Part shown: piece after piece, positions 2,547 to 63,459 of the stretch
Layout: each line of letters starts with the position of its first letter
How positions within the stretch are numbered: position 1 is the first letter of the stretch
Assembly (NCBI GenBank): GCA_964017065.1
Contig: OZ024787.1
Coordinates: 1,506,658-1,570,657 of the forward strand
Length of the DNA: 64,000 bases
From: Haliclona indistincta
Lineage: Eukaryota > Porifera > Demospongiae > Haplosclerida > Chalinidae
Direction of reading: 5' to 3'
Notes under the pieces: model-generated
Databases searched by the model: none
What the model saw: the letters and a program-made list of their open reading frames with translations, nothing else
What the model was told of the DNA's origin: nothing
Made by a program: the position numbers and the translations under genes

Positions 2547-3954
2547 TTAGTCTTTGGAGACTGTTGTTTTCACAGTAGTCTTGATACCATCCTGACGTAC
2601 CACAGCACTGTAGACCAGCCCATCATTACTGGTGTCTGGTGTCTTAGTAATCACACTGTAACCAGCATTATTGATGTCTCCTGTGGTGGGTGGGGCAGTA
2701 GGTCCATGGTGGGTGTGGTTATACAGTCTTTCATCACCAGCGGTAGCATAGGTTGCTGTATTACTGATAGCACTGTAACCAGCAAGCTGTTCCTCCTCAG
2801 TAATCTCAGTGTATGCACCAGGCAGTGTGCTGTATATGTGTGGTTGTGGTGTAGTAGCCTGACTGTATAGTCTATCATTGTTAAATGTCAGCGATAGTTG
2901 ACTGTTAGTCATGTTGTTCAACTGATGTGTCACTCTGTGATTATGAAAACATAGCAAAGATATAGTAAACATTGTCATAAAATTTTGGATAAACAGTTAT
3001 TCAAGTACATAAACTCACATTGTTGTTTGTTGTTGATGGTGTTTAGCTCTGTAGTACAGTATGATGATAGTAGCTATAACACACACTACTAGTAGACACA
3101 CTACTAGTACTACTACTGGTGCTACTATTGCTGGGACTAGTGCTGCATCGCTAACTCCCATGTTAACTGATTGAGTGGTGTTCATTGTCGGGAAAAGGAT
3201 GGTGCTACTAGTTATGCTAGCTGTCACAACTTGTGATAGTTTAGTAGCTGTGGAAAGTAAGAGTATACAAAGTAATAATAATCAGAACAGCTAGTATAGG
3301 ATAAAATTTAGTGACAAAAAACTAAATTTTATGCTTTGAGCTTTTTCTTTATTTGCACAATTTTTGCACTACTACATCTATGTGTGTTGAAATTTGTGCA
3401 TGTGCAATTATGAATAACTTACAACCTCACTTGCTATTGTACACTGTGAGCACTATGAAGACAATACTGACCTGATGGTGATGGTGATGGTGTAGTTATG
3501 TTACAGTCCCATACAACCTGTAGATAACCTTGTGTATTGAGTTGTGTACACCGACAGCAATGGATAGGTAGAGATATATTAGTCACGTTGTTCATAAACC
3601 AGCAGTCTCGTGGTTTTGTGTTTATCACAGCTTTACAATAGTTCACACAGTTCAATGTAGTTGACACACATTGAATTTCATCAGCGCTTTCATAGTAACA
3701 TGTACCATCATATTCATCTGGACAACGCCCTGTGGAAGTGTATGATACACTGTGTTTGTTGTGTTTGCTAATACATGTCGTACTGTGAACATTGCCGGTA
3801 TCAATGAGGAAATGATGTGACAGTGATGAACTATAGATTTCATAGTGTTTGTGTTTTAGTTGCTGCCTACTAGCTCACCTGGTTGGTCTTGTGTTGATCC
3901 AGTATTGATCCCAACACATACTATCAGTAGAACCACCAACTCACTAGACACCAT
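2547..3954 (-). CDS. Receptor unit 1: signal peptide, Cys-rich ectodomain, TM, ITIM-like tail (intact)
   Basis: Four exons on the minus strand: exon 1 3879-3954, exon 2 3472-3729, exon 3 3019-3247, exon 4 2547-2934. All junctions are GT-AG, with phases 1, 1 and 2. Exon 1 starts at ATG (3954) and encodes a signal peptide with hydrophobic core LVVLLIVCVG. Exon 2 carries about ten cysteines (CVSTTLNC, PIHCCRC, WDCN) and several N-x-S/T sites. Exon 3 is a short Thr/Ser-rich stalk, then a TM helix rich in V, L and C, ending YYRAKHHQQQTTM. Exon 4 is a cytoplasmic tail with HIYSTL, AYTEI, AGYSAI, AGYSVI and LVYSAV sites and ends KTTVSKD. The predicted product is a type I membrane protein able to recruit SH2 proteins or clathrin adaptors if the tyrosines are used; ligand unknown. 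It aligns with unit 5 in block B. Confidence 0.82.
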
Positions 3955-4957
3955 TACTAACACACCTGATATACTGAAATCCCGAAAGTGTACTGGAATG
4001 TTTTGATACAAGGTATTGTGTTGTTTGAATCTCAGTCAGACATGTTATGATGCACTCACAGGAACAAACATGCTTTAGAATTTTCTCATGCCTAGTGAGG
4101 CGATGCCTTGTACATAATGCATAACTGTGTGTTACCTTAATGGTGGCCTCTTTTAAATATCCTCAGGCTTCTGTTAGTTAGTGAGCCTCTGAGCGTCATT
4201 ACTGACTGTTAATACTACTAATCTAAACATTAAGTGTTGCCACACCAAAATGGGTAGTAATAACACTATTTATGACTTTGGAAGTAGTAATTTTATAACA
4301 GAGTGCAGTTTGTCTGCCTATGAATAGCTACCACAGTGTTAGTCATTGCGGAGTGACGATCCTTTGAAAAGCCCTATCAATTGTAAGCTTTAGTTGACGT
4401 TTGAAACATACGAAGCTAAAACTGCTCAAGCAAGCTCATACATTTTGCATTATCTGTGCAGGTAACATCATCTTCACTGATCAATGCTCGCATATGATAT
4501 TGCAGCTACATGTTGATTGCAATTATTAGATACATGTATGTGCTTGCCTTGACTGGTCTTGCCTGACTGATAGCTTCTTTTTTCTCCTGGTAGAATATAC
4601 TCCTGGTAGCTGACCTTATTGCAAGTACCGAACAATTATAGTCACCAATGCTTGCCCTGCCGTGTAATAATCACAATTATCGACAGCACGATGACACTAG
4701 ATTAGATTCTATATGTATACTGCCCTCTAGCAGAGTTGACAATAGACTACTTGTACTGCTTTCGAATGCCCATACACATGTAGGTGCCCCAAGAGCTAAA
4801 CAGGTATTCATTGCATAACTAAAGTACTCATTGAATCTGTAGCTGTTGACAATCATGGAGTCACAGAAACTACAAACCATTCTACTGTATACAAATTCCA
4901 TATCAAATGAATTTTGGTCACAAGTACATAATTATTTAGTCTTCGAAGAGTGTTGTT
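3955..4957. other. Spacer between units 1 and 2
   Basis: The first bases upstream of the unit 1 ATG are the conserved block CAGTATATCAGGTGTGTTAG read on the minus strand. The rest has no exon. From about 3975 to 4957 it aligns with 23035-24021 between units 5 and 6, with small indels. In block B a 1.24-kb transposon sits at the matching position of about 3974, so this copy is the uninterrupted site. Confidence 0.65.
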
Positions 4958-6168
4958 TTAAATATAGCAGTCTTCATACCATCCGTGACCAAATCTATCT
5001 GATACTGACTGCTGTACTGTTGTTTTCACAGTAGTCTTGATACCATCCTGACGTACCATTCCACCATCAAGTATTATAATGTAACCGGCATTATCAGTGT
5101 CACTGTCTCCAACAGTGGGCGGGGCAGTATGCCCATGGTGGGTGTGGTTGTACAGCCCATCATCACATGCTCTATTAGTACTAGCTGCAGCATGGGTTGC
5201 TGTATCACTGTAACCAGCAAGCTGTTCCTCCTCTGTGTGTTTAGTGGGTGGCTCAGTCGGTGTGCTATATATGGGCGATGGTGATATTGTAGCATTATCA
5301 CATGTCAATGTGTTAGTAGTGTTGTTCATCTGGTGCACTACTCTGTGAAGTGAAAGCACAGATTGTGTTCTTGTATGTCATACAAAAACTTTCTGTATAA
5401 ACAATGACACTACTATCATACACACTCACTTTGTTGTTTGTTGCTGATGGTGTTTAGCTCTGTAGTACAGTATGATGATAGTAGCTATAACACACACTAC
5501 TAGTAGACACACTACTACTACTACTACTGGGGTCATGATACATGTAGTAGCATCAACTGTCATGGTAGTGACTGTCGGAGTGACTATTGTAGAAGTGATA
5601 ACAGCACTATCAGTTGACATACTAGTAGCCACAGTCTGTGATAGTACAGTAGCTGATGATGGTATAGTAGCTGTGGTTAGTAAAATTGATATTTCTACTG
5701 CATGTATGATAGTATTCCCTATGATATTTGTGTACTCACCTGATGGTGAAGATTTCATTGTATTACAGTTCCATATTAGTTGTCTCATGAATTGACCCGT
5801 GTCACTGCTATTGCACAGACAGCAGTTAACAAATTGTTGTGATGTTCTAGCTCTGCAGCTTCGTAACCGGCTGTTTATTGTAGCTAGACAACTGCCGGCA
5901 GCGCAGAACAATGTAGTGGACACACAGTCAGAGTCACTACCATCAAAAATCGCATCATGATCACAGTTCATGTTGTTTTCATTGGGACAAGTTTCTGTGT
6001 AAAGGTTAAAAAATTAGTATTTACAGAGTAGTCTGCCTAAGAGATGTAATGACATCTGACGGTTTTAAGATGCGATCAGTGACAGCTATTATGTAGCTCA
6101 CCTAGTGTTGATCCAGTATTGATCCCAACACATACTATCAGTAGAACCACCAACTCACTGGACACCAT
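4958..6168 (-). CDS. Receptor unit 2: variant tail without the LVYSAV site
   Basis: Exons: 1 at 6102-6168, 2 at 5740-5994, 3 at 5430-5670, 4 at 4958-5342, with canonical splice sites. Exon 1 ends S-T-L instead of the usual S-A-Q. The ectodomain has CVSTTLFC and NCCLCN. The stalk is short and TM/juxtamembrane is standard. In the tail the usual LVYSAVVRQDG is replaced by a sequence ending ILDGGMVRQDG, so the strongest ITIM-like site is lost, while IYSTP, AGYSD, LYNHT and AGYIII tyrosines remain. The C-terminus is extended to end GWYEDCYI rather than stopping at KTTVxKD. Unit 6 has the same extended end, so this is an old subtype. Exons 2 and 3 share a frame with no stop in the short intron between them, so intron retention would still give a membrane protein. 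Confidence 0.78.
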
Positions 6169-6985: not shown

Positions 6986-9735
6986 TTAGTTTTTGAAGAC
7001 TGTTGTTTTCACAGTAGTCTTGATACCATCCTGACGTACCACAGTACTGTAGACCAGCCCATCATTACTAGCATCTTGTGCCTCAGTAATCACACTGTTG
7101 CCAACACCATTGATGTCTTCATTGGCTGTTTTAGTGGTATCATTGTAACCAGCAAGCTGTTCATTCTCAGTAATCTCACCATGTGGTGTCTCTTCATCAG
7201 TGCTGTATGATGGGATCTGGTTGTACAACTCGCTATTGTCACATCTTGCACTGTCTGTGTTACCATATATGTTGTCCAACTGATGTATTGTTCTGTGAAA
7301 ATTTTAGCAAAATGTGGAAATTACTGGTGTTGTGCTATTGTGTTCACTCACATTGTTGTTTGTTGTTGATGTTGTTTAGCTCTGTAGTACAGTATGATGA
7401 TAGTAGCTATAACACACACTACTAGTAGACACACTACTAGTACTACTACTGGTGCTACTACTGGGACTATTAATGCATTGATAGTAGCACTACCAGTGAT
7501 GGTAGTAGCTATTGGAGTGACGACCATAGATTTAGTAGAACTGATAGTGTCCGTGTAGTCAGCTAGAGTACTATCAGTTGCCATAGTAACGGTTAAGGAC
7601 TGCACTTTAGTCAATATGCTAGTAGTCGCAATCTGCGATAGTGTAGTAGCTGTGGATAGTGTAGTAGCTGTGGATAGTGTAGTAGCTGTGGATAGTGTAG
7701 TAGCTGTGGATAGTGTAGTAGCTGTGGATAGTGTAGTAGCTGTGGATAGTGTAGTAGCTGTGGATAGTGTAATAGCTGTGGATAGTGTAGTAGCTGTGGA
7801 TAGTGTAGTAGCTGTGGATAGTGTAGTAGCTGTGGATAGTGCAGTAGCTGTGGATAGCAATATTTGGAAGTTGAATTAAGTACTATGATAATTATTTCAT
7901 TATTGTGTACTCACTGGATGGCGAGGAGTTGATTATATTGCAGTTCCATATTAATTGCCTCTTGATTTTACCAGTGTTACTAGTATTGCACAGACAGCAT
8001 CTGATATTTTGTGGGAATCCAGCTCCTGGGAAGTCGCAGCCTCGTGACCGTCCGTTTATTGTAGCTTGACACGTTCTGCAGTTCAATGTACTCGTCACAC
8101 AGTCAGAGTTGCTATCACGACTCTTAATATAATCACAGAGTCCATCTTTCTCATTCTGACAAGATTCTGTGTGAAACAATAATGCGAATATTATTGGAGT
8201 AGTCTGTTTAGATACAGCAAGTTCATATCTGCAAGCACACGACCCTCAGTCGCCCTACGTGTGCTTGCGACCGCGAGACTTGTATTGTATTGCTCTCATT
8301 GGGTGACATCCGGGTAAACTACGAAGCGCTTGAGAGCTGCTTACGACAGGCTCGCACATAGGAGCGTAGACTTGCTCGTGAGCAGTACTTTATACTGTTC
8401 ACGTGATGTTACATATAATATTAAAGTAAATTAAAAAGATTTCTATCGAAATCAAAAGGATGTAGTGATGAAGAAATCTACCACTGGTTCACAATGTAAA
8501 CCAACAAGGAACAAGCATGGAATGGTAACACGATTGACTTGCTAACAGACCATAGATCCCTACATCAGTGGCTGCTGTGGTCTGACTATAGCTAGTTCAG
8601 CTAGTTACTGTATGTTGACTGACACCTGACGTGCGTTGAATTGAATTCAACTTGTGACAAAATATTGATCATGTGTACAGCCACTGATGTAGGGATCTAT
8701 GGTCTGTTAGCAAGTCAATCGTGTTACCATTCCATGCTTGTTCCTTGTTGGTTTACATTGTGAACCAGTGGTAGATTTCTTCATCACTACATCCTTTTGA
8801 TTTCGATAGAAATCTTTTTAATTTACTTGTTTGTGTCCTTTTTTCTTTTTCAGTGAAGTGCAGTTCAATATCATGCATGTACCGAGCCGTCTTTGTTTCC
8901 ACCATTAGTTTAGTTTTCCTGTTGTTGATGGCTTTTCTATATTATTATTAATTTAAACTTGTAGCTAAAATCGTTATGCTGTACATATCAGCTCGCCTAC
9001 GCATGCATACAGTGCATACGAGCCCCGCCCACACTTGTTTGCAGACCTATACAAGCGCAGAATGGCGATCTTCACGAGCTTACCGTTCTTCGCAGACAAA
9101 TGCCGGGTATGTGTTCTCGGGCCGTGATCCGTACGGCGCGGCGATACTCTCGATCATCTAGCTAGTGCTTGGTCACGTGCGCTAGCCACTGCTTGGTCAC
9201 GTGCGTATGCATATTGCGCAATCACAATAATGGCGTCTAACACTTAGCTGACAATGGATCACGATCGAGAAATCGCGGAATTTATATCGCCGTTACGCTA
9301 AAAACAAAGTTCAAAAGGCACCTGCCAGGAGAATTTCACGACTGCTCGTGGGTGTTTTGGTCTCGGCACTGCTCGCGTAAAGGCGCTAGGCGCGCTGAAG
9401 AAAGAAGAAAGAAGAAGACGAAGATGACGAAACTCGATTTTCACCGTTTCCAGGTTCGTCACTTTAGTAACAATTTCGATCAATCTCCTTGCTACTGTAA
9501 GATGGGGCAACGCCAGAGAGCAGATCTAAGTGTTTTGGACGTATAAAATTCATCACCAGGCGAAATAAGAGCGTTTGAACGCTAATACATTGTATGTAGC
9601 CGCCATCTTGTTTTCTCGTTCATCCCTACATAGGGAGTCACTACCGTGCCTCCCTAATACTATCTCACCTTGTGCTGATCCAGTATTGATCCCAACACAT
9701 ACTATCAGTAGAACGACCAACTCACTGGACACCAT
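6986..9735 (-). CDS. Receptor unit 3: long repeat stalk, transposon in intron 1
   Basis: Exons: 1 at 9669-9735, 2 at 7915-8166, 3 at about 7352-7847, 4 at 6986-7292. The ectodomain is the SCQNEKDG subtype (CVTSTLNC, RCCLCN, IWNCN), shared with units 7 and 10. Exon 3 begins in an 18-bp minisatellite encoding about twelve copies of T-L-S-T-A-T, a mucin-like stalk likely to be O-glycosylated; it is followed by the TM helix and RAKQHQQQTTM. The exact 3' splice site is ambiguous because every repeat unit contains CCACAG. The tail has ELYNQI, AGYND and LVYSTV. Intron 1 is about 1.5 kb because a foldback/hairpin transposon (8418-9657) is inserted just upstream of the exon 1 donor; the equivalent introns of units 7 and 10 are short. 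All exons remain open. Confidence 0.78.
7640..7857 (-). repeat. 18-bp minisatellite encoding the stalk of unit 3 (about 12 copies)
   Basis: Twelve near-perfect head-to-tail copies of GTAGTAGCTGTGGATAGT on the plus strand, encoding T-L-S-T-A-T on the minus strand. Each copy contains the sense-strand splice-acceptor-like string CCACAG directly before CTACTAC. Other units carry 1 to about 17 copies. Confidence 0.97.
8418..9657 (+). mobile_element. Foldback/3'-hairpin transposon, copy 1 (1240 bp)
   Basis: The 5' part (about 8425-8830) is a near-perfect foldback with arms of about 170 bp around a short loop; it contains ATCCCTACATCAGTGGCTG and its complement. A body of about 830 bp follows, with a GAAGAAAGAAG tract and a TAGCCGCCATCTTG motif. 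The 3' end is a hairpin with stem AGGGAGTCAC / GTGCCTCCCT and loop TACC, ending CTAA. Units 7 and 10 show the same intron uninterrupted (ACATATACACTATCTCACC at about 27424), so both ends are placed by comparison. No target duplication is evident. No transposase is encoded. Confidence 0.88.
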
Positions 9736-10093
9736 TACTAACAGACCTGATACACTAACAGTAGTCTATTGCTTAGTGAGTCAAAGAGTAAATAGTGCAT
9801 GCTTGTTTAGTTTTGATGTCAGTCAGGCATTATCAGGTCCATGTTATTGTACATGTTGCTAACATGTCAAGGCACGCACTGGAAGAGGAAATATTGAGTT
9901 AATAAGGAAACAGATAATTATGTTCAAGTGAGGATTTTTTTGCTCAGTATAGCAATAACTTGTTGTGAGCCCAACAGATACGGTCTCTATGTCAAGCTAC
10001 TGGTCATGATTGTAATGAATTGCATTGCTTTCCTTTACGTGCTTTACGTGGTTTTTCTTTTCCTTACCTTGCTCTTCGTCACTGCATTAATTA
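9736..10093. other. 5' flank of unit 3
   Basis: Contains the conserved upstream block of exon 1, then unique sequence homologous to 27530-27880 and 39845-40200, the flanks of units 7 and 10. No coding sequence is supported. Confidence 0.5.
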
Positions 10094-10383
10094 AAAGTAA
10101 AAAACTTTTAATAAAAAAAACTAAAAAGTGTAGGGATGACGCTTGCAAAAGTAAAGGAACAAGATGGGATGATGCTTGCAAAGTAAAGGAACAAGAGGGA
10201 TGTTGCTTGCAAAAGTATAGGAACAAGATGGGATGGCGCTTGCAAAAGTAAAGGAACAAGATGGGATGATGCTTGCAAAAGTGAAGTATGTAAAAGTCCC
10301 AAGTATCCCTACATCAGCGGCTTGCTGCGATGGTGTGCAACTGGCAAATGCAGACTATACCTTTTACAGCCATCAATGACTTA

Positions 10384-10695
10384 ATCGGACTGTGTCTTCC
10401 AAACCACAGATACCTCTAGTTATTTACAACTGTCAACTACTTCATCGGACTGCGTCCTCCAAACACAGATACCTCTAGTTATTTACAACTGTCAACTACT
10501 TCATCGGACTGCGTCCTCCAAACACAGATACCTCTAGTTCTTTACAACCGTCAACTACTTCATCGGACTGCGTCCTCCAAACACAGATACCTCTAGTTTT
10601 TTACTAACGTCAATTACTTCATCGGACTGCGTCCTCCTAACACAGACACCTCTAATTATTTACAACCGTCAATTACTTCATCGGACTGCGTCCTC
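10384..10695. repeat. 59-60 bp tandem repeat in the foldback loop (about 5-6 copies)
   Basis: The string ATCGGACTGYGTCYTCC recurs at about 10384, 10444, 10503, 10562, 10621 and 10680, each followed by a conserved ACACAGAYACCTCTA stretch. It sits exactly between the two foldback arms. Confidence 0.95.
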
Positions 10696-13701: not shown

Positions 13702-14512
13702 TTAGTCATTGCAAACTGTTGTTTTCACAGTAGTCTTGATACCATCCTGACGTACCACAGCACTATAGACCAGCCCATCATTACTGGTGTCTGGTGTCTT
13801 AGTAATCACACTGTAACCAGCATTATTGATGCCTTCCATGGTGGGTGGGGCTGTAGGTCCATGGTGGGTGTGGTCATACAGTCCGTCATCACATGCTTCC
13901 GTAGTGCTAGCAGTAGCTGTGTTACTGATAGCACTATAACCAGCAAGCTGTTCCTCCTCAGTAATCTCAGTGTGTTCACCAGGTGGCTCAGTCAGTGTGC
14001 TGTATACTGGTGGTTGTGGTGTAGTAGCCTGACTGTATAGTCTATCATTGTTAATTGTCAATGATAGTTGACTGTTCAACTGGTGAGTTGCTCTGTGATT
14101 ATGAAAACATTGTCATAAGTGCACCGTGGATCAACTTTGTTATATCATAATAAATTATGTTAGTAGTTGACACTAGCTTTGGAACTTTTTGTTTATCCAA
14201 ACGTTTCGACCACTTTTCAGCGGTCTTCTTCAGTGAAATACAAAACAGGACTACCTTGTATTCCACTGAAGAAGATCGCTAAGAAGTAGTCAAAATATTA
14301 ATTTTAAATAAACAAAGCTAGTGTGAACTAGTAACGTATTACGATGTCTTTACCTATGTAGCTACCAAGGCCTCTGTAAATCTATCAAGAATATTTCTGT
14401 TGTTTGTTGTTGATGGTGTTTAGCTCTGTAGTACAGTATGATGATAGTAGCTATAACACACACTACTAGTAGACACACTACTAGTACTACCACTGGTGCT
14501 ACTATTGCTGGG
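13702..14512 (-). pseudogene. Receptor unit 4: truncated pseudogene (tail exon and part of TM exon)
   Basis: The tail exon (13702-14092) is intact, with VYSTL, EITEEEQLAGYSAI and LVYSAV. The TM exon starts near 14397, but compared with unit 11 (41632-41665) a deletion of about 20 bp has removed the splice donor after RAKHHQQQTT. The TM exon is cut at about 14512 by a TIR element. No ectodomain or signal-peptide exon follows before the TRIM gene at 15326. A normal receptor cannot be produced. Its closest relative is unit 11, including a shared hairpin element in intron 3. Confidence 0.85.
14166..14328. mobile_element. Short hairpin MITE in intron 3 of unit 4
   Basis: About 160 bp forming an imperfect hairpin from GACACTAGCTTTG to CAAAGCTAGTGTG. 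An orthologous copy sits at 41403-41557 in intron 3 of unit 11, so the insertion predates the duplication of these units. Confidence 0.75.
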
Positions 14513-15234
14513 ACCATAGATACTACAGTACGGGATAGGAAGCCGCACTTAATTGACGTCACATGACATTTACATTTTCCGTGTTCCGTGTATTGTGCTC
14601 TCCATGTTTTAAATAAACAGAGAATCTCTGATAGCACAGCCAAGAATCTACCAAGAACTTTGCCTTTTTACACGGTCAAAGAACGGATAGTTGTCTGGAT
14701 ATCCAGCCCAGTACACATCGTAGGGTATGTACCATTGATCCAGCCAGTATGGAGAATTTGTGTATACAAAATCCTGACCCCAATGGAGACGAGTTCGTGT
14801 CTGTTCGTGTCTATAGCAGATAAAGTATACTTCTTGGCAACTTAATAACTGGTTCAGTACACGCAGACGACTGATGGCTTTGTATTGGCACCAAAATCAA
14901 GTCATAGAACCTTTGCCTCTTCGAGAATTTGTGTACATACAGATCTGTAATCCGCCATTACACTCGCAAATCTTCTGTTTGCCGTGAGGTGCCAGTACTG
15001 GTATCCATCCTAGGCCGGTAGTATGAAACACAGTACAATAAATGCACTAGAATAGCCCAGAGACAGCTAAAGAAAGCTGTACAGGCAAAAAACTACACCG
15101 AGCTCATCTGCTGCTAATTAGTAATCACTGCTACATGCAGTAATGCGCATCGATTACCTCGACATGACGTCACGTAATAAATTTTGATTTGGAGGAAATT
15201 TTAGCTTCCTATCCCGTACTGTAATATCTATGGT
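14513..15234. mobile_element. TIR element truncating unit 4 (about 720 bp)
   Basis: Bounded by a roughly 30-bp inverted repeat: the left end includes ACAGTACGGGATAGGAAGC and the right end includes GCTTCCTATCCCGTACTGT. The inner sequence has no clear transposase. It begins inside the TM exon of unit 4. The superfamily is not determined, since I cannot define the target duplication. Confidence 0.7.
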
Positions 15235-15325
15235 CACAGTGAAGCAATGTTTACACTATAATTTAATGGTATTCATAGCTGATTACCACATTAACCAGTG
15301 GTGTGATCAGTAAAACTCGCCCTCT

Positions 15326-19585: not shown

Positions 19586-19875
19586 TTAATAATTGACCAC
19601 TTACCATGAATTTAAGTAGTGGTTGTTTTTTTTTACAACTATTCAGTGCTCAAAGGGTTATTGAATTTGATTCGAACACATACTATCTGTAGAATCACCA
19701 CCTTACTGGATACCATTACTATGTACTGAAAGTGATGCCAGACCAGTACCTGTATCCAACGAGTATGAAATTCATGCTAGCCTCTATAGTACTCATGCTT
19801 GACTAAGTGAATTTGACAATATTTTTAGCTAAATTATGTAAAACTGTTTTTTTGAATCCAGGGAAAAAACTTGTT

Positions 19876-46328: not shown

Positions 46329-47744
46329 CTAGCAATCATTCCTAGCTATCATATTGTCTTTGAAGACTGTTGTTTTCACAGTAGTCTTGATACCATCCTG
46401 ACGTACCACAGCACTGTAGACCAGCCCATCATTACTGGTGTCTGATACTGACTGCTGCTGCTGCTCATCAAGCTGTGCTGTTGTTTTCACAGTAGTCTTG
46501 ATACCATCCTGACGTACCACAGCACTGTAGACCAGCCCATCATTACTATCATCTTGTGTAATCACACTATAACCAGCAGGGATCTCCTCTTTGCTTGTTG
46601 TAATAGTATCACCGATAACACTGTAACCTGCAAGCTGTTCCTCATTAGTAATCACACTGTAGCCAGCAGTATAGCTCATCCCATTTTTAGTAGTACATGT
46701 ACTTGTATCTCCAATAGCACTATAACCATCAACCTGCTCCTTCTCAGTAATCTCACTGTACTCATTGGGTGCCTTCTCTCCCTCTGTGATGCATGTGTAG
46801 TGTGTAGCCTGGCTGTATATCTCATGTTGTGGTTCACAGTTTGTCATGTTATCCAGATGGTGTATTTCTCTATAGGTTTGACAAAGTTATTGTGTGGATC
46901 ATAACAGGATATTGTCTAAACTCACTTGGTTGTTGGTTGTTGAGGGTGTTTAGCTCTGTAGTACAGTATGATGATAGTAGCTATAACACACGCTACTAGT
47001 AGACACACTACTAGTACTACTGTTACTACTACTGGGACTATTACTGCATTGATAGTAGCACTGGTTGTCATGGTAATTGTTGGCTTGTTGGTAATAGAGG
47101 TAGTACTAACACTGGTATCTGTTGTCATGGTAATGGTTGTCATGGTGATCATGGTAGAGTCTGTAATGGTTGTCATAGTAACAGGTGGTTCAGGGAAGGC
47201 ACTAGTAGTCACAGTCTGTGATGGTACAGTAGCTGTTGGGAGTTGATAATAATTTTAGTGTACACATATTCATTGGTTTACTCCATGCTATTGTTTGTTG
47301 TTTTACTCACCTGATGGTAGTAGTGATAGTGATGGTGTGATTATAGTACAGCCCCATTGTAGGCCGTCTGCATTAGTGGTACAAACACAACAGTAGATAG
47401 CTTGTGATGAATCATTAGCTTCTGTAAATTCACATTCTCGTGGTATAGTGTTTATCACAGCTGTACAATCATTGCTGATACAGTTCAGTGTAGTTGACAC
47501 ACATTGGTTGATGTCCTTATCAAATTGATTGTCGAAAGCGCACTTTTCATCTTCACAAGTTTCTGTGAAAAGTTACAAGAATGTAAAGATAGATTAGTGC
47601 CCTCTATAATAGAGGCTCTATGCATCCTAAGTACTTCAGAGAGCTTTTTGTGTTAGTAGCTAACTCACCTGGTTGGTCTTGTGTTGATCCAGTATTGATC
47701 CCAACACATACTATCAGTAGAACCACCAACTCACTGGACACCAT
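46329..47744 (-). CDS. Receptor unit 13: divergent tail, intact
   Basis: Exons: 1 at 47669-47744, 2 at 47311-47572, 3 at 46926-47232, 4 at 46329-46869 (acceptor CTATAG). The ectodomain has CVSTTLNC, AIYCCVC (His replaced by Tyr) and QWGCTI, so the usual closing CN is CT. The stalk is Thr-rich with T-M-T-T-I repeats and no 18-bp array. Juxtamembrane is RAKHPQQPTTK. The tail begins MTNCEPQHEIYSQ and has NEYSEI, DGYSAI, three AGYSVI-type sites and two LVYSAV modules; it ends with KDNMIARNDC, about ten residues beyond the usual terminus. The whole frame is open. Confidence 0.8.
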
Positions 47745-50494: not shown

Positions 50495-51752
50495 CTAGCT
50501 ATCATTGTCTTCCAAGACTGTTGTTTTCACAGTAGTCTTGATACCATCCTGACGTACCACAGCACTGTAGACCAGCCCATCATTACTGGCATCTTGTGTA
50601 ATCACACTGTAACCAGCAGGGATCTCCTCTTTGCTTGTTGTAGTAGTATCACAGATGACACTGTAACCAGCAGTACTGATGTTTCCCATGGTGGGTGGGG
50701 CTGTTGGTCCATGGTGGGTGTGGTTATACAGCCTATCATCACATGCATAGGTTGCTGTGTTACTGATAGCACCATAACTGGCAAGCTGTTCCTTCTCAGT
50801 AATCTCAGTGTATTCACCAGCTGGCTCAGTCAGTGTGCTGTATATGTGTGGTTGTGGTGTAGTAGCCTGACTGTATAGTCTATCATTGTTGATTGTCAAT
50901 GATAGTTCACTGTTACTAGATTTGTTCATCTGGTGTACTACTCTATGAAAATGAAAGTACAGCTGACTGAAGTATTTTTGTACAAACATAATCTGTTACA
51001 TTCGGATGATGTCTACTTCACTCACTTTGTTGTTTGTTGTTGATGGTGTTTAGCTCTGTAGTACAGTATAGTAGCTATAACACACACTACTAGTAGACAC
51101 ACTACTGGTACTACTACTACTGCCGGGACTACTGCACTAATAGCACTATTTGCTGTAGTTGGTGTAGTAGTAGGTGATGGTGATACAAATGATGGTATGA
51201 TAGTAGTAGTAGTAGTAGTAGTAGTTTTTACTGCAAAAGTAGTAGTAGTAGTAGTGGATAGTGTAGTAGCTGTAGATAGAGATTAGAAGGAAAGAATTGG
51301 TTTACTTCATGCTATTGTATGTTGTTTTACTCACCTGATGGCAGTAGTGATAGTGATGGTGAAGTTGTTATATTACAGCCCCATCGTAGATTTGATATAT
51401 TTGTTGCACCCTGGTAACACATACAGCAGTGGATGGGTAGAGATACATTAGGTCCAATGTTCATGGATTGGCATATTTCTCGTGTTACTGTGTTTATTTC
51501 AGCTGTACAGTCATTGTTCGTGCAGTTGAATGTAGTGGACACACATTCAGTACGGTTGGTATCAAAAGCACTGTTAAAACCACACGTTATATTAGTTCTA
51601 GGTTGACAAGATTCTGTGGATAGTGTGCAACAATGATATGGCACTAGCAGAGTTTGTAGACAGCTAGAATATGACACTAGCTCACCTTGTGTTGATCCAG
51701 TATTGATCCCAACACATACTATCAGTAGAACCACCAACTCACTGGACACCAT
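50495..51752 (-). CDS. Receptor unit 14: poly-Thr stalk, intact
   Basis: Exons: 1 at 51686-51752, 2 at 51335-51613, 3 at 51026-51269, 4 at 50495-50942 (acceptor CATAG). Ectodomain: SCQPRTNITC, CVSTTFNC, PIHCCMC, RWGCNI. The stalk is encoded by ACT trinucleotide runs (T5 and T9) instead of the 18-bp repeat. The TM helix is two residues shorter than usual from an in-frame 6-bp deletion. The tail has HIYSTL, EYTEI, ASYGAI (tyrosine context altered), AGYSVI (twice) and LVYSAV, and ends KTTVLEDNDS. Exons 1 and 2 share a frame through the short intron, so an unspliced product would also keep the reading frame. Confidence 0.8.
51195..51256 (-). repeat. Trinucleotide (ACT)n stalk repeat, unit 14
   Basis: Two AGT/GTA runs on the plus strand separated by TTTTTACTGCAAA; they encode poly-threonine on the minus strand. 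A similar run is at 52050-52083 in unit 15. Confidence 0.9.
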
Positions 51753-51929: not shown

Positions 51930-52053
51930 TGTAATATAATACACACTACTAGTAGACACACTACTAGTACTACTACTACTACTAGTGGGACTATTGCACT
52001 AGTTGCTGTAGTTAGTGTAGTAGTAGGTGATGGTGATACAAATGATGGTATTA

Positions 52054-52086
<33 letters not shown>

Positions 52087-52578
52087 ATAGTGTAGTAGCT
52101 GTAGATAGAGATTAGAAGAAAACAATTGTTTACTCCATGCTATTGTATGTTGTTTAACTCACCTGATGGTAGTAGTGATAGTGATGGTGAAGTTGTTATA
52201 TTACAGCCCCATCGTAGATTTGATATATTTATTGCACCAAGGTAACACATACAGCAGTGGATAGGTAGAGATACATTAGGTCCGATGTTCTTAAATTGGC
52301 ACATTTCTCGTGTTACTGTGTTTATTTCAGCTGTACAGTCATTGTTCGTGCAGTTGAATGTAGTGGACACACATTGAGTGCGGTTGGTATCAAAAGCACT
52401 GTTAAAACCACACATTATATTAGTTCTAGCTTGACAAGATTCTGTGGATAGTGCAACAATGATATTGCACTAGCAGAGTTTGTAGACAGCTAGAATATGA
52501 CACTAGCTCACCTTGTGCTGATCCAGTATTGATCCCAACACATACTATCAGTAGAACCACCAACTCACTGGACACCAT
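51930..52578 (-). pseudogene. Receptor unit 15: partial duplicate (signal, ectodomain, stalk, half TM)
   Basis: Exon 1 at 52512-52578, exon 2 at 52163-52441, exon 3 remnant about 51935-52105. It is a close tandem copy of the 5' half of unit 14, differing by a few residues (CQFKNIGPN for CQSMNIGPN). The TM coding stops after the VCLLVVC block: the YYRAK segment and tail exon are missing, and sequence beyond about 51930 is AT-rich. It is a truncated duplicate; alternatively its exons 1-2 could splice onto the TM and tail exons of unit 14, giving an alternative ectodomain. Confidence 0.8.
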
Positions 52579-53190: not shown

Positions 53191-54666
53191 TTAGTCTTTG
53201 GAGACTGTTGTTTTCACAGTAGTCTTAATACCATCCTTGACTACCACAGCACTGTAGACCAGCCCATCATTACTGGTGTCTGGTACTGACTGCTGCTGCT
53301 GCTCATCAATCTGTGCTGTTGTTTTCACAGTAGTCTTGATACCATCCTGACGTACCACAGCACTGTAGACCAGCCCATCATTACTGGTGTCTGATACTGA
53401 CTGCTGCTGCTGCTCATCAATCTGTGCTGTTGTTTTCACAGTAGTCTTGATACCATCCTGACGTACCACAGCACTGTAGACCAGTCCATCAATACTGGTG
53501 TCTTGTGCCTCAGTAATCGCACTGTAACCAGCAGGGATCTCCTCTTTGGTTGTTTTACCGATAGAACCGACAGCACTGTAACGAGCAAGCTGTTCCTCCT
53601 CAGTAATCTCACTGTGTTCATCTGGTAGTGGGCCTTCAGTGCTGTATGGTAGGGTCTGGCTGTATAGCTCACTATTATCACAAGTCAGTGGCTGTTGACT
53701 CTCTGTAATATCAGTCATGTTATCCAACTGATGGTGTGTTCGTCTACATGTGATATCATAATACACATGTAGCAGGTAACTTAAACTAACTTTGTTGTTT
53801 GTTGTTGATGGTGTTTAGCTCTGTAGTACAGTATGTTGATAGTAGCTATAACGCACACTACTAGTAGACACACTACTAGTACTACTACTGGTGCTACTAC
53901 TACTCCCGCAGCAATAGTAGTACCTGTTGCCATGGTGATTGCTGGTATGGTGACCGGAATAATAGTACTGGTGTTAACTGTTATAGTGACATCAGTTGCC
54001 ATGGTAACAGTTGATGTGGCAGTTAGTTTTAACATGGCATTATCAGTGGATCTAAAACTATCAATTGTCACGGAAATGGTTGGCGTGGTGGTCAATTGTA
54101 CTCTGGTTGTCAATTGTACTCTGGTTGTATCGGTAGTAGTTTCTATGGTAACAGCAGATAATGTGTTGTCATGGTAAGCTCTTGTAGTACTAGTCACAGT
54201 ATGTGTTAGTACTATTGTGGTAGCTGTAAATAGTGAATTGTTTTAATTCTGGATTGGTTCACTGTTGCAACACTCACCTGATGGTAGTAGTGATAGTGAT
54301 GGTGTGATTATAGTACAGCCCCATGTGAGTGGACCATCACCTGGGGCACAAACACAGCAATCGATAGGTTGTGATAGTGATTCATTAACTCCGATGTTTA
54401 TGAATTGACAGTCTCTTATGAACATATTTATCTCAGCTTCACAGTCATTGCTCACACAGTTCAATGTTGTGGTTACACATTGAGTGGTGTCTTTGTCAAA
54501 ACTCATGTCGAGAGTGCAATTCCTGTTGTTATCATCTTGGCAAGGTTCTGCGCATGGAGGGTACAAATGATTCTGTTTTAGTAGCTGACTCACCTGGGTC
54601 TTGTGCTGATCCAGTATTGATCCCAACACATACTATCAGTAGAACCACCAACTCACTGGACACCAT
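53191..54666 (-). CDS. Receptor unit 16: three LVYSAV modules, 46-bp intron 1
   Basis: Exons: 1 at 54594-54666, 2 at 54278-54547, 3 at 53791-54223 (donor GTTAGT), 4 at 53191-53743. Intron 1 is only 46 bp. Ectodomain: PCQDDNNRNC, CVTTTLNC, PIDCCVC, TWGCTI; the PIHCC histidine is Asp and the final CN is CT. The stalk is about 85 residues of Thr/Val/Ile-rich sequence with a short VQLTTR direct repeat, not the 18-bp array. The tail has three LVYSAV modules separated by QIDEQQQQSVxD linkers, plus AGYSAI and ARYSAV. All frames are open. Confidence 0.8.
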
Positions 54667-55320: not shown

Positions 55321-56837
55321 TCAGTCTTTGAAAATGGTTGTTTTAACGGTAGTTTTCGTACCATCTTGGACTACCACAGCACTGTAGACCAGCCCTGCAT
55401 TACTGGTATCCTTTTTCCCATCGATCACTCTGTAATTAACATCAGGGATCTCTTCCTTGGTTGTTTTATTAGTATCATCGATAGCACTGGAGCCAGCAAG
55501 CTGTTTCTCATCAGTAATCACACTGTATTCACCAGGTAATGGTACAGTGCTGTATGGTAGGGTAATATCGTGTCTTGTGTGGTTATACAGCTCGCTGTTG
55601 TCACATGTCATTGTTGGTTCATTGTCTGTGATACCAGCCATGTTATCCAACTGTGTTGGTCTGCATAGGAACTGAATAAACATTGGTGTGCAGTCAATGT
55701 ATGAACTCACTTTGTTGTTTGTTGTTGATGGTGTTTAGCTCTGTAGTACAGTATGATGATAGTAGCTATAACACACACTACTAGTAGACACACTACTAGT
55801 ACTACTACTGGTGCTACTATTAACACAGTAATAGTAGTACCTGTTGCCATGGTGATTGTTGGCATGGTGACTGAGATAATAGTACTGGCGTCAACTGTTA
55901 CGGTATCATCAGTTGCCATAGTAACATTTGATGTGGCAGTTAGTTTTACCATAGCATTATCAATGGGGCTAAAACTATCAGTTGTCATGGAAATAGTAGA
56001 CATGGGTGTGGTGGTCAATTGCACTCTGGTTGTATCGGTAGTAGTTAATACGGTAACAGCAGATAATGTGTTGTCATGGTAAGCTCTTGTAGTACTAATC
56101 TCAGTCTGTGTTATGGTAAAGCTATCAGTTGTCATGGAAATAGTAGACATGGGAGTGGTGGTCAATTGCACTCTGGTTGTATCGGTAGTAGTAACAGCAG
56201 ATAATGTGTTGTCATGATAAGCTCTTGTAGTACTAATCTCAGTCTGTGTTATGGTAAAGCTATCAGTTGTCATGGAAATAGTAGACATGGGAGTGGTGGT
56301 CAATTGCACTCTGGTTGTATCGGTAGTAGTAACAGCAGATAATGTGTTGTCATGATAAGCTCTTGTAGTACTAGTCACAGTTTTTGTTAGTACCTTTGTT
56401 GTAGCTGTAAATAGTGAATCGTTGCTAATTCTGGATTGGTTCACTGTTGCTACACTTACCTGATGGTAGTAGTGATAGTGATGGTGTGATTATAGTACAG
56501 CCCCATATCAGTGAATCATTACCTGGTGCACAAAGACAGCAATCAATAGGTTGTGATACATTAACTCTGATGTCTATGAATTGACATTGTCTCATGATTG
56601 TATTTATCATAGCTTCACAGTCATTGTTCACACAGTTCAATCTTGTGGTCACACATTGAGTGGTGTTGGTATCATGACCATCGTTGTAAGTGCAATTGGT
56701 ATCATCTCGACAAGGTTCTGTGCATTGGAAGGTACAAATGATTGTGTGTTAGTAGCTGACTCACCTGGGTCTTCTGCTGATCCAGTATTGATCCCAACAC
56801 ATACTATCAGTAGAACCACCAACTCACTGGACACCAT
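55321..56837 (-). CDS. Receptor unit 17: 138-bp stalk repeats
   Basis: Exons: 1 at 56765-56837, 2 at 56460-56717, 3 at 55711-56404, 4 at 55321-55660. Intron 1 is 47 bp. Ectodomain: CVTTRLNC, PIDCCLC, IWGCTI. The stalk is the longest non-minisatellite version, about 170 residues. It is built from a 46-residue unit (138 bp, with TTRAYHDNTLSAV and STISMTTDSF landmarks) present three times, two of them almost identical. The tail is short: VNYRVI and LVYSAV remain, EYSVI is present, and the usual AGYSAI reads AGSSAI, losing its tyrosine. The end is KTTIFKD. Confidence 0.8.
55984..56400 (-). repeat. 138-bp direct repeat in the stalk exon of unit 17 (3 copies)
   Basis: GTCATGGAAATAGTAGACAT recurs at 55984, 56131 and 56269; the last two units are exactly 138 bp apart, the first spacing is 147 bp. 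In-frame, so each copy adds 46 residues. Confidence 0.92.
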
Positions 56838-58856: not shown

Positions 58857-59634
58857 TCAGTCTTTGATGACTGTTGTTTTCACAGTGATCTTGATACCAT
58901 CCTTGACTACCACAGCACTGTAGACCAGCCCATCATTACTGGTGTCTGATACTGACTGCTGCTGCTCATCAATCTGTGCTGTTGTTTTCACAGTAGTCTT
59001 GATACCACCCTTGACTACCACAGCACTGTAGACCAGCCCATCATTACTGGTGTCTGATACTGACTGCTGCTGCTGCTCATCAATCTGTGCTGTTGTTTTC
59101 ACAGTAGTCATGATACCATCCTGACGTACCACAGCACTGTAGACCAGCCCATCATTACTGGCATCTTGTGCCTCAGGAATCGTACTGTAACCAGCAGGGA
59201 TCTCCTCTTTGATTGTTTTAACAATAGTACCGACAGCACTATAACCAGCAAGCTGTTCCTCCTCAGTAATCTCACTGTAACCATCAGGTAGTGGCCCATC
59301 AATGCTGTATGGTAGGGTCTGGCTGTATAGCTCACTATTATCACAAGTCAGTGGCTGTTGACTCTCTGTGATATCAGCCATGTTATCCAACTGATGGTGT
59401 GTTAGTCTACATGTGATAACATAATACACATGTAACAGGTAACTTAAACTCACTTTGTTGTTTGTTGTTGATGGTGTTTAGCTCTGTAGTACAGTATGAT
59501 GATAGTAGCTATAACACACACTACTAGTAGACACACTACTAGTACTACTACTGATGCTACTATTGCTGGGACTACTGCACTATTACTAGCACTAGTTGCC
59601 GTACTTGATGTGACGATCACAGTAGTAGTAGTTA

Positions 59635-60848
59635 TTAGGGAGACACGGTAGTGTCTCCCTATGTAGGGATGAGCGAGAAAACAAGATGGCGGCTACATAC
59701 AATGTATTAGCGTTCAAACGCTGATATTTCGCCTGGTGATAAATTTTATACGTCCAAAGACACTTAGATCTGCTCTCTGGCGTTGCCCCATCTTACAGTA
59801 GCAAGGAGATTTCTCGAAATTGTTACTAAAGTGACGAACCTGGAAACGGTGAAAATCGACTTTCGTCATCTTCGTTTTCTTATTCTTCTTTCTTCCACTC
59901 GCCTAGCGCCTTTACGCGAGCAGTGTCAAGACCAAAACACCCACGAACAGTCGTGAAATTCTCCTGGCATGTGCCTTTTGAACTTACTTTTTAGCGAAAC
60001 GACGATATACATTTGACGAGCTCACGATCACGAACAGTTGTCAGCTAAGTGTTTGACGCCATTATTGTGATTACGTAATACGCACGTGACCAAACACACA
60101 TGTAGAGTATCGCCATATGGAGAGCGCATATTGGCGTCTGCCGTCTGGAGTCTTCGAAGAACAACTCACAGAGTAAGGTCGTGTAGTATCACCGTTCTGC
60201 TGCTTGCCAGATAGTATCACAGCCATACAGAAAATTCTAAACCAGAGTGGGCGGGGCTCGTATGCTGTGCATCCAGGCTGCGCTGCAGCATGCATGAGCT
60301 AGTTTCACCATTTAGGAGCTACAAGTTAAAAAGCAATTATCAAGAAAAGCAAACCAAACCAATGATGGAAACAAAAAAGAGATACATTATCTTGCCGAAT
60401 TCGAACTGCACCAAAAATTTGAAACTCACTGTAAAAGAAAAAAGGACACAAACAAGAAAATAAAAAGATTTCTAACGAAATCAAAAGGATGTAGGGATAA
60501 AGAAATCTGCTACTGGTCCACAATGTAAACCAACAAGGAGCAAGCATGGAATGGTAACACGATTGACTTGCTAACAGACCATAGATCCCTACATCAGTGG
60601 CTGACTACAGCAGTTCTGCTAGTTGCTATTGACTGACACCTGACATGCATTGGTTAGCTTGTGACAAAATAATTATAGTATAGTCAAAATGTTATGTACA
60701 GCCACTGATGTAGGGATCTATGGTCTGTTAGCAAGTCAATCGTGTTACCATTCCATGCTTGCTCCTTGTTGGTTTACATTGTGGACCAGTAGCAGATTTC
60801 TTTATCCCTACATCCTTTTGATTTCGTTAGAAATCTTTTTATTTTCTT
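59635..60848 (-). mobile_element. Foldback/3'-hairpin transposon, copy 4, reverse orientation (1214 bp)
   Basis: Hairpin end at 59635-59660 (stem AGGGAGACAC / GTGTCTCCCT, same as copy 3), body 59660-60450, foldback at about 60455-60845 with foldback-loop motif ATCCCTACATCAGTGGCTG. Inserted between A and T within a codon of unit 18 with no duplicated bases, as judged by the restored reading frame. Confidence 0.9.
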
Positions 60849-60952
60849 TAACACCATCAGTTGCAATGAATGTCGTTATTGGCTGAACTGCAATAGTATT
60901 GGTAGTAGTAGGTAAGTCAAGGGAGGCACTAGTAGTCACAGTCTGTAGTGAG

Positions 60953-61076
60953 CTAGCTGTGGATAGTGTAGTAGCTGTGGATAGTGTAGTAGCTGTGGAT
61001 AGTGTAGTAGCTGTGGATAGTGTAGTAGCTGTTGATAGTGTAGTAGCTATGGATAGTGTAGTAGCTGTTGATATTG
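60953..61076 (-). repeat. 18-bp stalk minisatellite, unit 18 (about 7 copies)
   Basis: GTAGTAGCTGTGGATAGT units with GTTGAT and CTATGG variants. Confidence 0.93.
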
Positions 61077-61552
61077 ATAGAATTATTCATTGGTTTACTC
61101 CATGCTATATTGTTTGTTGTTTTACTCACCTGATGGTAGTAGTGATAGTGATGGTGTAGAGGTGATTGTTCTATTGCATTCCCATAGTAGAGTTTGTTCA
61201 TTCGTTATATCAGGGGCACACAGACAGCAATGTATAGGTTGAGATACAGTAGCTGTGATGTTCATGACTTGACAGCCTCGTGTTAAAGAGTTTATTTCAG
61301 CTGTACAATGGTTCGTGCAGTTCAATGTAGTGGACACACATTGAGTGAGGTTATTATCATAATTGCTGTTAAAATTGCATTTATTGGTTCCTTCTTGACA
61401 AGGTTCTGTGGATAGTATGCAATGATATACACTAGCAGAGATTGTAGAATAATAAATTTAGGTGCTACTAACTCACCTGGTTGGTCTTGCACTGATCCAG
61501 TATTGATCCCAACACATACTATCAGTAGAACCACCAACTCACTGGACACCAT

Positions 61553-62210
61553 TACTAACACACCTGATATACTGACAGCAGTCACACTAACCTACATGTA
61601 TGATACACTAACATTATAAAACACATTGAGTCGATACATGTATAATCGGCCTAATGTTATCTAAACAATTTTAATTTGATTTTGTTTGTGTTTCATTAGG
61701 CATGTTATCATACTCTGCAACACCATCACAAGAACACATATTGAAAAAACAGCTAAAGGATAGTGATTTCAATATGAAAAAGCAGAATCAAGTTTTACTT
61801 TCATGCCCATTGGTTATATTTGCTTGCCTTGGTAGGGTGGTCTCTCTCAAGTAGTCTAAGCAGTGTGAACAGCAATGGTACTAGCTCTATACTGACAGGT
61901 CAGCTAGATCAACGTCAGAACCTACTGTTAGTGCTACTAATATAAACATAATGCTGTCACGCCAGCTATAGCTGAGTAGCTATCATAACATGTGGATAGC
62001 ATGTGACTGATTTCTATACCAAACACTACAGAGTTGATAGTAACTTGGTATCCATTAAAGATCTACATTATAATAGAATTATTTCTGATTTCTAACAACA
62101 AGCAACGTAACAATTACAACACTAAGAGGGAATTGCTGATGTTGATGATGGTCAACCTAACTACATATAGAGCTACACTACAGTACAGTGAGTCATGGGA
62201 TACTGTATAT
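61553..62210. other. Spacer between units 18 and 19
   Basis: Aligns closely with 54667-55320. No exon is supported. Confidence 0.55.
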
Positions 62211-63459
62211 TCAGTCTTTGAAAACAGTTGTTTTAACGTAAGTCTTTTTACTGTCCTGGTATACCACGGCACTGTAGACCAGCCCTTTAATACTGGCATC
62301 ATTTTCTCCATTGATCACACTGTAATTAACATCAGGGATCTCTTCATAGGTTGTTCTATTAGTATCATCGATAACACTATAACCAGCAAGCTGTTCCTTA
62401 TCAGTAATCTCACTGTATTCACCAGGTGATGGTACAGTGTTGCAAGGTGGAGTATTGATGTGTGTTGTGCAGCTATATAGCTCGCTGTTGTCACATGTCA
62501 TTGTTGGTTCATTGTCTGTGATACCAGCCATGTCATCCAACTGTGTTGGTCTGTATAGGAACTGAATAAACAATTGGTGTGCAGTCAATGTATGAACTCA
62601 CTTTGTTGTTTGTTGTTGATGATGTTTAGCTCTGTAGTACAGTATGATGATAGTAGCTATAACACACACTACTAGTAGACACACTACTAGTACTACTGGT
62701 ACTACTATTGCTGGGACTAGTACATTGATAACACTAGTTGCCGTACTTGATGTAGTAGTAGGTGATGGTGATACAAATGATGTAGTAATAGTAATAGTAA
62801 TAGTAGTGGATAGTGTAGTAGCTGTAGATAGTGCAGTAGCTGTGGATAGTGTAGTAGCTGTGGATAGTGTAGTAGCTGTGGATAGTGTAGTAGCTGTCGA
62901 TAGTGTAGTAGCTGTCGATAGTGTAGTAGCTGTGGATAGTGTAGTAGCTGTGGATAGTGTAGTAGCTGTGGATAGTGTAGTAGCTGTGGATAGTGTAGTA
63001 GCTGTGGATAGTGTAGTAGCTGTGGATAGTGTAGTAGCTGTGGATAGTGTAGTAGCTGTGGATAGTGTAGTAGCTGTGGATAGTGTAGTAGCTGTGGATA
63101 GTGTAGTAGCTGTCGATAGTGCAGTGACTTTAGATATTGATCAGGAGGAAAGAAAAATTTGGTTTACTTTATGCTATTGTTTTACTCACCTGATGGTAGT
63201 AGTGATAGTGATGGTGTAGAGGTGATTGTTCTATTGCATTCCCATAGTAGACCTTGTATATCAGGGGCACACACACAGCAGTGTATAGGTCGAGATACAT
63301 TAGCTGTGATGTTCATGACTTGACAGCCTCGTGTTAAAGTGTTTATCACAGCTGTACAATGGTTGTTCGTACAGTTCAATGTAGTGGACACACATTGAGT
63401 GAAGTCGGTATCAAAATTACTGTTATAATTACACTTATTGGTTCTTTCTTGACAAGGTC
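62211..63459 (-). CDS. Receptor unit 19: longest minisatellite stalk, exon 1 not in window
   Basis: Exon 2 at 63190-63459, exon 3 about 62602-63109, exon 4 at 62211-62550. Ectodomain: CVSTTLNC, PIHCCVC, WECN, close to unit 18. The stalk carries about 17 copies of the 18-bp repeat, giving roughly 100 residues of T-L-S-T-A-T, the longest in the array. TM and RAKHHQQQTTK are standard (encoded with GATGATG in place of GATGGTG). The tail is like unit 17: EYSEI, AGYSVI, VNYSVI, LVYSAV, end KTTVFKD. No signal-peptide exon is found between 63460 and 64000. A palindrome starts just upstream, so exon 1 may have been lost or lie beyond the window. Confidence 0.72.
62808..63126 (-). repeat. 18-bp stalk minisatellite, unit 19 (about 17 copies)
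   Basis: Longest array of GTAGTAGCTGTGGATAGT units in the window; several copies carry GTCGAT. In-frame on the minus strand. Confidence 0.97.

Follow-up and report, generated by a model that had tools for sequence, protein, structure and literature searches.

Tails carrying immunoreceptor tyrosine-based inhibitory or activation motifs (ITIMs and ITAMs) are already known on unrelated, diversified ectodomains in mammals, Botryllus and Hydractinia, and this convergence has been described as spanning cnidarians to mammals (PMC12065747). For the fester co-receptors (FcoR) of Botryllus, a balance between activating and inhibitory signals has been proposed (PMC12065747). Here we describe a tandem array of 19 receptor-like units with ITIM-type tails in the sponge Haliclona indistincta. 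The array lies in a stretch of 64,000 nucleotides (the window; C5:1506658-1570657, where C5 is contig OZ024787.1), and the genome searched comprises 144 Mb in 46 contigs. We found no sponge ITIM receptor cluster in the open-access literature searched by title and abstract. Judging from the DNA, the array probably encodes a tandemly expanded, paired-receptor-like recognition family that would signal via Src-type kinases and SHP2-type phosphatases. We observed directly the receptor architecture, the tail motifs, the mosaic make-up of the genes, a signal of selection and the genes for effectors.

Our exon models place 19 four-exon units on the minus strand of the window, from position 2547 (the stop codon of U01) to 63459 (the 5′ end of the U19 ectodomain exon). 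An earlier note on this DNA had described 19 units of a single four-exon architecture on one strand; the models agree with its count and with both of its end points, and confirm the architecture, all four exons being open in 14 of the 19 units (U01-U03, U07-U14 and U16-U18). Within a unit the exons follow in the order leader (MVSSELVVLLIVCVGINTGS), ectodomain (about 85 codons), stalk with transmembrane segment (TM), and tail; junction phases of 1, 1 and 2 were taken from U01 and then imposed on all other units. A type I single-pass layout (signal peptide, ectodomain and one hydrophobic TM, with peptide and TM judged by eye) was found in 14 of the 19 window units. The damaged units are U04, U05, U06 and U15; U19 is complete once a leader just beyond the window (C5:1571359-1571427, equivalent to window 64702-64770) is counted. 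The window holds 17 full leaders, two leader relics and 18 ectodomain exons; of its 19 TM segments one is truncated, and of its 18 tail exons one is split (U15 has no tail). The 17 non-seed ectodomain exons match a profile, built from matches in this window, with E values from 1.7e-58 to 2.3e-39. The array exceeds both edges of the window: 35 ectodomain-bearing minus-strand units lie in 144 kb (C5:1486658-1630657), with none in the final 28 kb, and 29 of the 35 have all four exons modelled, among them unit 24 with a frameshifted TM. This unit search covered the minus strand, and a separate genome search places all its matches in the region on that strand. The features in the window are as follows (u numbers refer to the longer array).

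2547..3954, minus strand: U01 (u28), intact; tail 2547-2934, stalk and TM 3019-3247, ectodomain 3472-3729, leader 3879-3954
4958..6168, minus strand: U02 (u27), open reading frame (ORF) intact, tail class 1, ITIM match absent
6986..9735, minus strand: U03 (u26), intact; about 1.5 kb between leader and ectodomain; 12-copy 18-bp stalk repeat at 7637-7857
13702..14526, minus strand: U04, fragment with only TM and tail; leader and ectodomain exons not found
19667..19716, minus strand: decayed relic of a leader exon that agrees with the commonest leader at 43 of 50 aligned bases
19878..21778, minus strand: U05 (u25); an insertion between 20232 and 20807 breaks the tail exon in two
24022..25274, minus strand: U06 (u24), frameshift in the TM segment, probable pseudogene
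26129..27510, minus strand: U07 (u23), intact
28750..30820, minus strand: U08 (u22), intact; two ITIMs and ITAM-like spacing in the tail
32658..32745, minus strand: interrupted leader-exon relic, first 22 bases intact
36058..37362, minus strand: U09 (u21), intact; shorter TM segment
38295..39831, minus strand: U10 (u20), intact; tail repeats a 111-bp (37-aa) ITIM module at 38309-38600
40420..42653, minus strand: U11 (u19), intact
43371..45776, minus strand: U12 (u18), intact
46329..47744, minus strand: U13 (u17), intact; three ITAM-like pairs (loose pattern) in the tail
50495..51752, minus strand: U14 (u16), intact
51935..52578, minus strand: U15 (u15), partial duplicate with an intact leader and ectodomain but a truncated TM and no tail
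53191..54666, minus strand: U16 (u14), intact; tail class 4, with LVYSAV ITIM three times and no ITAM-like spacing
55321..56837, minus strand: U17 (u13), intact; tail class 5; ectodomain akin to that of U16, tail class different
58857..61552, minus strand: U18 (u12), four-exon model open; tail class 4; stalk model uncertain, the 18-bp repeat (60954-61073) lying apart from the TM segment
62211..63459, minus strand: U19 (u11), ectodomain, stalk, TM and tail class 5; 18-copy 18-bp repeat at 62806-63125; leader at 64702-64770

The ectodomain has ten cysteine positions, as the earlier note had proposed, but not every copy keeps all ten; seven cysteine columns are invariant in the 18 window copies, in which an invariant tryptophan also precedes the last cysteine. 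The same note had given the family no recognised name, and this holds for the ectodomain in the libraries searched: no Pfam family was common to the members (27 ectodomains scanned), the ectodomain profile matched no PDB sequence up to E 10, and NCBIfam returned nothing for the single copy tried. None of these searches gave a clear match to a known non-receptor family. In particular, Pfam scans detected no Ig match in the 27 ectodomains, no SRCR match in U01, U16 or the 27 ectodomains, and likewise no NACHT match for the receptor family. AlphaFold (AF2) models of the U01 and U16 ectodomains are mainly beta, with a predicted local distance difference test (pLDDT) of 78.7 and 84.1 and a predicted template modelling score (pTM) of 0.64 and 0.73, respectively. 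A fold search with both models gave no significant match; we make no claim of a novel fold, the models having no confident assignment to any known one.

The tails carry the clearest signalling motifs. An ITIM ([ILVS]xYxx[ILV]) is present in 25 of the 29 modelled array tails, which together contain 48 matches, against a mean of 9.2 and a maximum of 20 in 200 shuffles; the earlier assignment of LVYSAV to the ITIM consensus was, therefore, correct. A loose ITAM-like pair (YxxI/L-x6-12-YxxI/L) occurs in 14 of the 29 tails, and a stricter pair, with an acidic residue, in 11, where 500 shuffles gave a mean of 0.19 and a maximum of 3. One example of such a pair is YSEITDKEQLAGYSVI. When a single tail per class was used, which reduces relatedness, 10 ITIM and 3 ITAM-like matches were counted, and neither number was reached in 2000 shuffles. 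In four window tails the 37-aa ITIM module is present 2.1-2.7 times. No place in the array matched the LVYSAV pattern with TCN serine codons, the array using AGT. The tails fall into six classes.

Tail class 1: 4 tails, ITIM in 1, ITAM-like pair in 0
Tail class 2: 9 tails, ITIM in 9, ITAM-like pair in 4
Tail class 3: 3 tails, ITIM only
Tail class 4: 5 tails, ITIM only
Tail class 5: 7 tails, ITIM in 6, ITAM-like pair in 6
Tail class 6: 1 tail, with ITIM and ITAM-like pair

Candidate partners for these tails are encoded in the same genome, where 90 matches to SH2 (E <= 0.001) were found. On C9, two intronless genes that lie side by side encode SH2-SH2-PTP proteins of 577 and 564 aa, both with the signature HCSAGIGRTG, and the best PDB match of the 564-aa protein is SHP2/PTPN11 (E 5e-181). 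Thus, an effector for ITIMs exists in the genome. Consecutive matches on C2 to two SH2 and PTP pieces point to a possible third gene of this type, in split form. At eight places on C2 and C3, an SH2 match lies in the same open frame as a tyrosine-kinase match, an arrangement like that of Src-type kinases. Elsewhere, dense runs of PTP matches (C10:6164845-6511786 and C3:15620635-15810513) are possibly phosphatase gene clusters.

We then compared substitution between the exons by the Nei-Gojobori (NG86) method over the array units, with the frameshifted unit 24 excluded. In the ectodomain (n=34) the synonymous rate dS was 0.559 and the non-synonymous rate dN 0.406, a ratio of 0.73 (95% confidence interval 0.53-0.95); dS and dN were 0.053 and 0.035 in the leader (n=34), 0.028 and 0.038 in the TM (n=33), and 0.455 and 0.269 in the tail (n=28). 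Codon site models, run with our own code on 32 units (1, 24 and 34 excluded), preferred M2a over M1a for the ectodomain, with 2dlnL of 74.5 and 74.3 in two runs and an omega of 2.3 at 28% of sites. On parts of the array 2dlnL was 31.6 (n=14) and 29.7 (n=17), and 11.3 for a set of 8; four null simulations under M1a gave 1.3-4.5. These results support diversifying selection as probably acting on part of the ectodomain. Exon-versus-intron divergence was dropped as a test of selection, since its 14 pairs (of 70 qualifying) had been picked for low intron divergence and the tail exon behaves like the ectodomain: in the ectodomain pN was 0.119 and pS 0.145 against 0.068 for introns, with pN above intron divergence in 12 of the 14 pairs, and in the tail exon pN was 0.093 and pS 0.125 against 0.064.

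The genes are mosaics. Ectodomain distances correlate with tail distances at a Mantel r of 0.46, a value reached in none of 2000 permutations, indicating that the linkage between ectodomain and tail is real yet incomplete. The neighbours U18 and U19 share 92% of their ectodomain DNA and 91% of intron 2, and 62% of intron 3, and carry tails of classes 4 and 5, respectively. In U16 and U17, also neighbours, the corresponding identities are 87, 94 and 61%, and the tails are of class 4 in U16 and class 5 in U17; the shuffled baseline for intron 2 is 63%, and in both pairs intron 3 is thus unrelated. Outside the window, u6 and u7 are identical over 66 of 66 bases of intron 1, 97% identical in the ectodomain and 64% in intron 3, with tails of classes 5 and 4 (the tail of u6 is itself disrupted). 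In all three pairs, then, related ectodomains stand on different tails, as in paired receptors. The classed tails of the upstream half run 5,4,5,5,4,5,4,5,5,4,5,4 (units 1, 3 and 15 are without a classed tail), as if blocks of two genes had been duplicated.

The DNA of the leader and TM is nearly fixed. Aligned without gaps, the leaders of 35 units are 94-100% identical from -12 to +60, and 67% identical from -24 to -13; toward its end the leader exon varies in length among units. The first 60 leader bases show 28 differences in 2100 from the commonest sequence, 11 of them in one indel-bearing unit. In the stalk/TM exon the last 96 bases are 90-99% identical in 33 units, and identity falls to about 33% by 12 bases beyond the donor. 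Synonymous sites in the two modules are about as fixed as other sites (dS 0.053 and 0.028, compared with 0.559 in the ectodomain). Ungapped counts understate the similarity of introns, and gapped comparison was used beside them: intron 1 of close paralogs is mostly 87-100% alike, whereas in six more distant pairs the leader is 0.94-0.98 and the TM 0.96-1.00 identical and the introns 0.56-0.84, with a shuffled baseline of 63%. On C6, the leader is 97-100% and the TM 87-94% identical, each in four matches listed from the best 40 candidates scored (of 90 and 76, respectively). The units at C6:14.1 Mb carry the same leader, altered at two bases in L037 and shortened by a 6-base deletion in L044 and L046, and their ectodomains are only 43-44% identical to that of U01 in amino acids; the group at C5:5.3 Mb shares the leader, and its TM has diverged.

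Near-fixity that includes synonymous sites, while the exons between and after diverge, is unusual and needs a mechanism. We found no support for RNA structure as the cause (z-scores 0.40 and -0.09). Plain gene conversion between DNA copies is favoured by the shared introns of close pairs and by an apparently degraded C6 unit, L048, that keeps a full-length leader; contrary to it are the distant pairs with unlike introns, the near-identical leaders on another contig and the relic decayed to 43/50. Nucleotide-level constraint or RNA-templated copying remain, and the evidence is mixed.

For a paired-receptor-like family the following mechanism can be proposed. If the genes are expressed, the near-identical leader would bring to the cell surface an ectodomain that is small, rich in cysteine and mainly beta; a Thr/Ser-rich stalk would hold it there, followed by the near-identical uncharged TM. 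The tail would present its ITIMs, mostly LVYSAV, and, in some classes, the ITAM-like pair. Binding of a ligand, of self or of a microbe, would cluster the receptors, and Src-type kinases could then phosphorylate the tails. SHP2-type phosphatases would dock on ITIM tails and lower activation, and effectors with tandem SH2 domains could bind to ITAM-like tails. Related ectodomains would be coupled with different tails by recombination between units; the resulting paired-receptor-like sets may fix a threshold that separates activation from inhibition. Diversifying selection would alter part of the ectodomain surface. The earlier note had suggested a recognition locus; receptor architecture, ITIMs above chance, the selection signal in the ectodomain and two SHP2-type genes make that suggestion stronger, in its signalling half.

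Several observations weigh against a paired-receptor-like family. Only one of the four class 1 tails has an ITIM. Of the 11 tails in which the stricter ITAM-like pair occurs, 10 bear an ITIM as well, so the split into activating and inhibitory members is not clean. A charged residue is present in none of 33 TM segments (unit 24 excluded), which would leave no adaptor-coupled partner by that route, and a Syk-type kinase was not established among the SH2 and kinase matches of the genome. The mean ectodomain dN/dS of 0.73 points to positive selection on a subset of sites at most; pN exceeds pS in just 6 of 14 independent close pairs, and the tail exon is also nominally significant in the M1a/M2a comparison (2dlnL 7.7, n=27, p 0.022). 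The codon tests, done with home-made code, can also be inflated by recombination between units.

Two sub-cases of the paired-receptor-like family differ in what such receptors might bind. Recognition of self and non-self tissue, as by Hydractinia Alr and the Botryllus fuhc locus, is conceivable though doubtful: clustered, diversified receptors with ITIM-type tails typify both of those systems (PMC12065747), and related ectodomains here carry different tails, but the 27 ectodomains lack a Pfam Ig match and the same genomic pattern would be expected from microbial ligands. Binding of microbes by paired receptors with decoy-like activating members, as has been proposed for mammalian CEACAMs, is a possibility of which we are likewise doubtful. 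The array has a CEACAM-like signature, with a fast-evolving ligand-binding domain and ITIM- and ITAM-like relatives linked by recombination (PMC2832619), but no relation in sequence was found between the ectodomain and any PDB chain.

Mucin-like endocytic or adhesion receptors, with a glycosylated stalk as spacer and YxxPhi sorting signals for clathrin-mediated uptake rather than SHP2 signalling, are an unlikely explanation. Sponges do ingest particles by phagocytosis, the stalk is Thr/Ser-rich with variable 18-bp repeats, and YxxPhi is plentiful, with 135 matches in the 29 tails against a shuffle mean of 40 and a maximum of 57. However, the more specific ITIM is also strongly enriched, sorting does not need ITAM-like spacing, the 37-aa ITIM module is duplicated inside tails and SHP2-type partners are encoded. 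The earlier note had offered this alternative, which loses weight because ITIM, a more specific motif, is present in the tails and some tail classes also have ITAM-like spacing. Quite improbable are gamete recognition or chemosensory surface proteins, whose rapid change would be non-immune. Such roles are, in general, compatible with an ectodomain that changes fast and a family that expands locally, but tails of the ITIM/ITAM-like type, and the exchange of tails, are to our knowledge uncommon in such proteins. The array could also be largely silent, maintained by tandem duplication and holding few genes that work; this would account for four damaged units of 19 and two leader relics, but is very improbable with 14 of 19 units open over four exons and substitution patterns that differ strongly by exon.

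The family extends beyond the array. A genome search with one ectodomain, in which all 72 candidates were scored, found at least 64 exons at E <= 0.01 on two contigs: at C5:1.472-1.602 Mb, at C5:5.336-5.359 Mb and, on C6, in several groups from 9.6 to 14.15 Mb. The 62 matches of a tail-module search are confined to C5:1.47-1.60 Mb and C6. Protein searches returned 44, 13 and 70 matches, nearly all of them European Nucleotide Archive (ENA) contigs, several of which (P0002, P0003, P0006, P0040 and P0045) are this genome's own exons. Members on C6 (L044 1772-2875; P0040 and P0042) have a divergent tail with tyrosine motifs such as EYSLP and repeated PAPY, which suggests additional tail classes. 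At C6:9575001-9594500 (L048 and L049), leader exons of full length are followed by exons that are degraded or unrecognised. In L049 a leader and a Thr-rich stalk with a diverged TM are present, and no ectodomain exon was recognised.

Other features of the window lie in and between the units. The 18-bp stalk minisatellite (LSTATT repeats; 7637-7857, 39158-39252, 44208-44328, 60954-61073 and 62806-63125) ranges from about 5 to 18 copies between units, and stalk length may differ between alleles too. An intronless TRIM-type ORF (RING, B-boxes and NHL repeats; 15326-17536, plus strand) lies within the array on the opposite strand, and a second NHL-repeat ORF (1-580, plus strand) continues past the window start. 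The intervals 8220-8840 and 10133-10891, between U03 and U04, contain short tandem arrays and an inverted repeat recognised by eye, perhaps remains of mobile elements.

A more specific proposal, which we put forward tentatively, is that the locus belongs to an Ig-independent self/non-self complex of sponges. In such a complex, near-invariant leader and TM modules, kept by nucleotide selection or RNA-templated copying, would frame freely diversifying exons for an orphan ten-Cys ectodomain and for the tail, and ectodomains would be swapped between ITIM-only and ITAM-like tails. If true, recognition would already have used SHP2-dependent ITIM/ITAM threshold signalling at the root of the animal tree, and sponge tissue recognition would gain concrete candidate receptor genes.

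Among known systems of sponges, the aggregation factors are extracellular proteins that contain Calx-beta domains. The array proteins, in contrast, span the membrane, and a Pfam scan of two of them, U01 and U16, reported no Calx-beta repeat at E values up to 5. The likeness is that the factors, too, are a sponge family discussed with allorecognition, as a title cited in PMC12065747 indicates. The SRCR and NACHT (NLR) families of the same genome are also large repertoires with local runs, with at least 102 matches each (for SRCR at E <= 1e-20, among the best 150 of 1669 candidates scored; for NACHT, among the best 102 of 631), but neither domain was matched in the receptor family. Amphimedon has 135 NLRs, and by the same table sea urchin and Hydra also have many (PMC9505182); large SRCR and NACHT repertoires thus fit a demosponge, and the earlier note's guess of a sponge, without proving it.

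Three parallels in concept are outside sponges. Mammalian CEACAMs likewise have a fast-evolving ligand-binding domain and ITIM- and ITAM-like relatives kept by gene conversion and recombination (PMC2832619); however, conversion keeps the CEACAM ligand-binding domains alike, whereas here it is the leader and TM that are near-invariant, and we found no sequence relation. Hydractinia Alr is a clustered family, with 41 members (PMC11999971), and ITIM/ITAM-type motifs are found on candidate genes (PMC12065747), but Alr proteins belong to the Ig superfamily and the array ectodomains lack a Pfam Ig match. The FcoR proteins of the Botryllus fuhc locus resemble those of the array in being type I receptors, clustered in an invertebrate, whose tails hold ITIM, hemITAM and core YxxI/L/V motifs; in contrast to the single orphan ten-Cys domain of about 85 aa found here, their ectodomain combines Ig and sushi domains in proteins of 520-610 aa (PMC12065747). 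Since the ectodomain matches no known family, we do not claim membership in FcoR, Alr or CEACAM; the tails suggest a similar way of working. Sponge receptors with ITIM/ITAM tails and SHP2-type effectors would extend the logic of these systems to earlier-branching animals.

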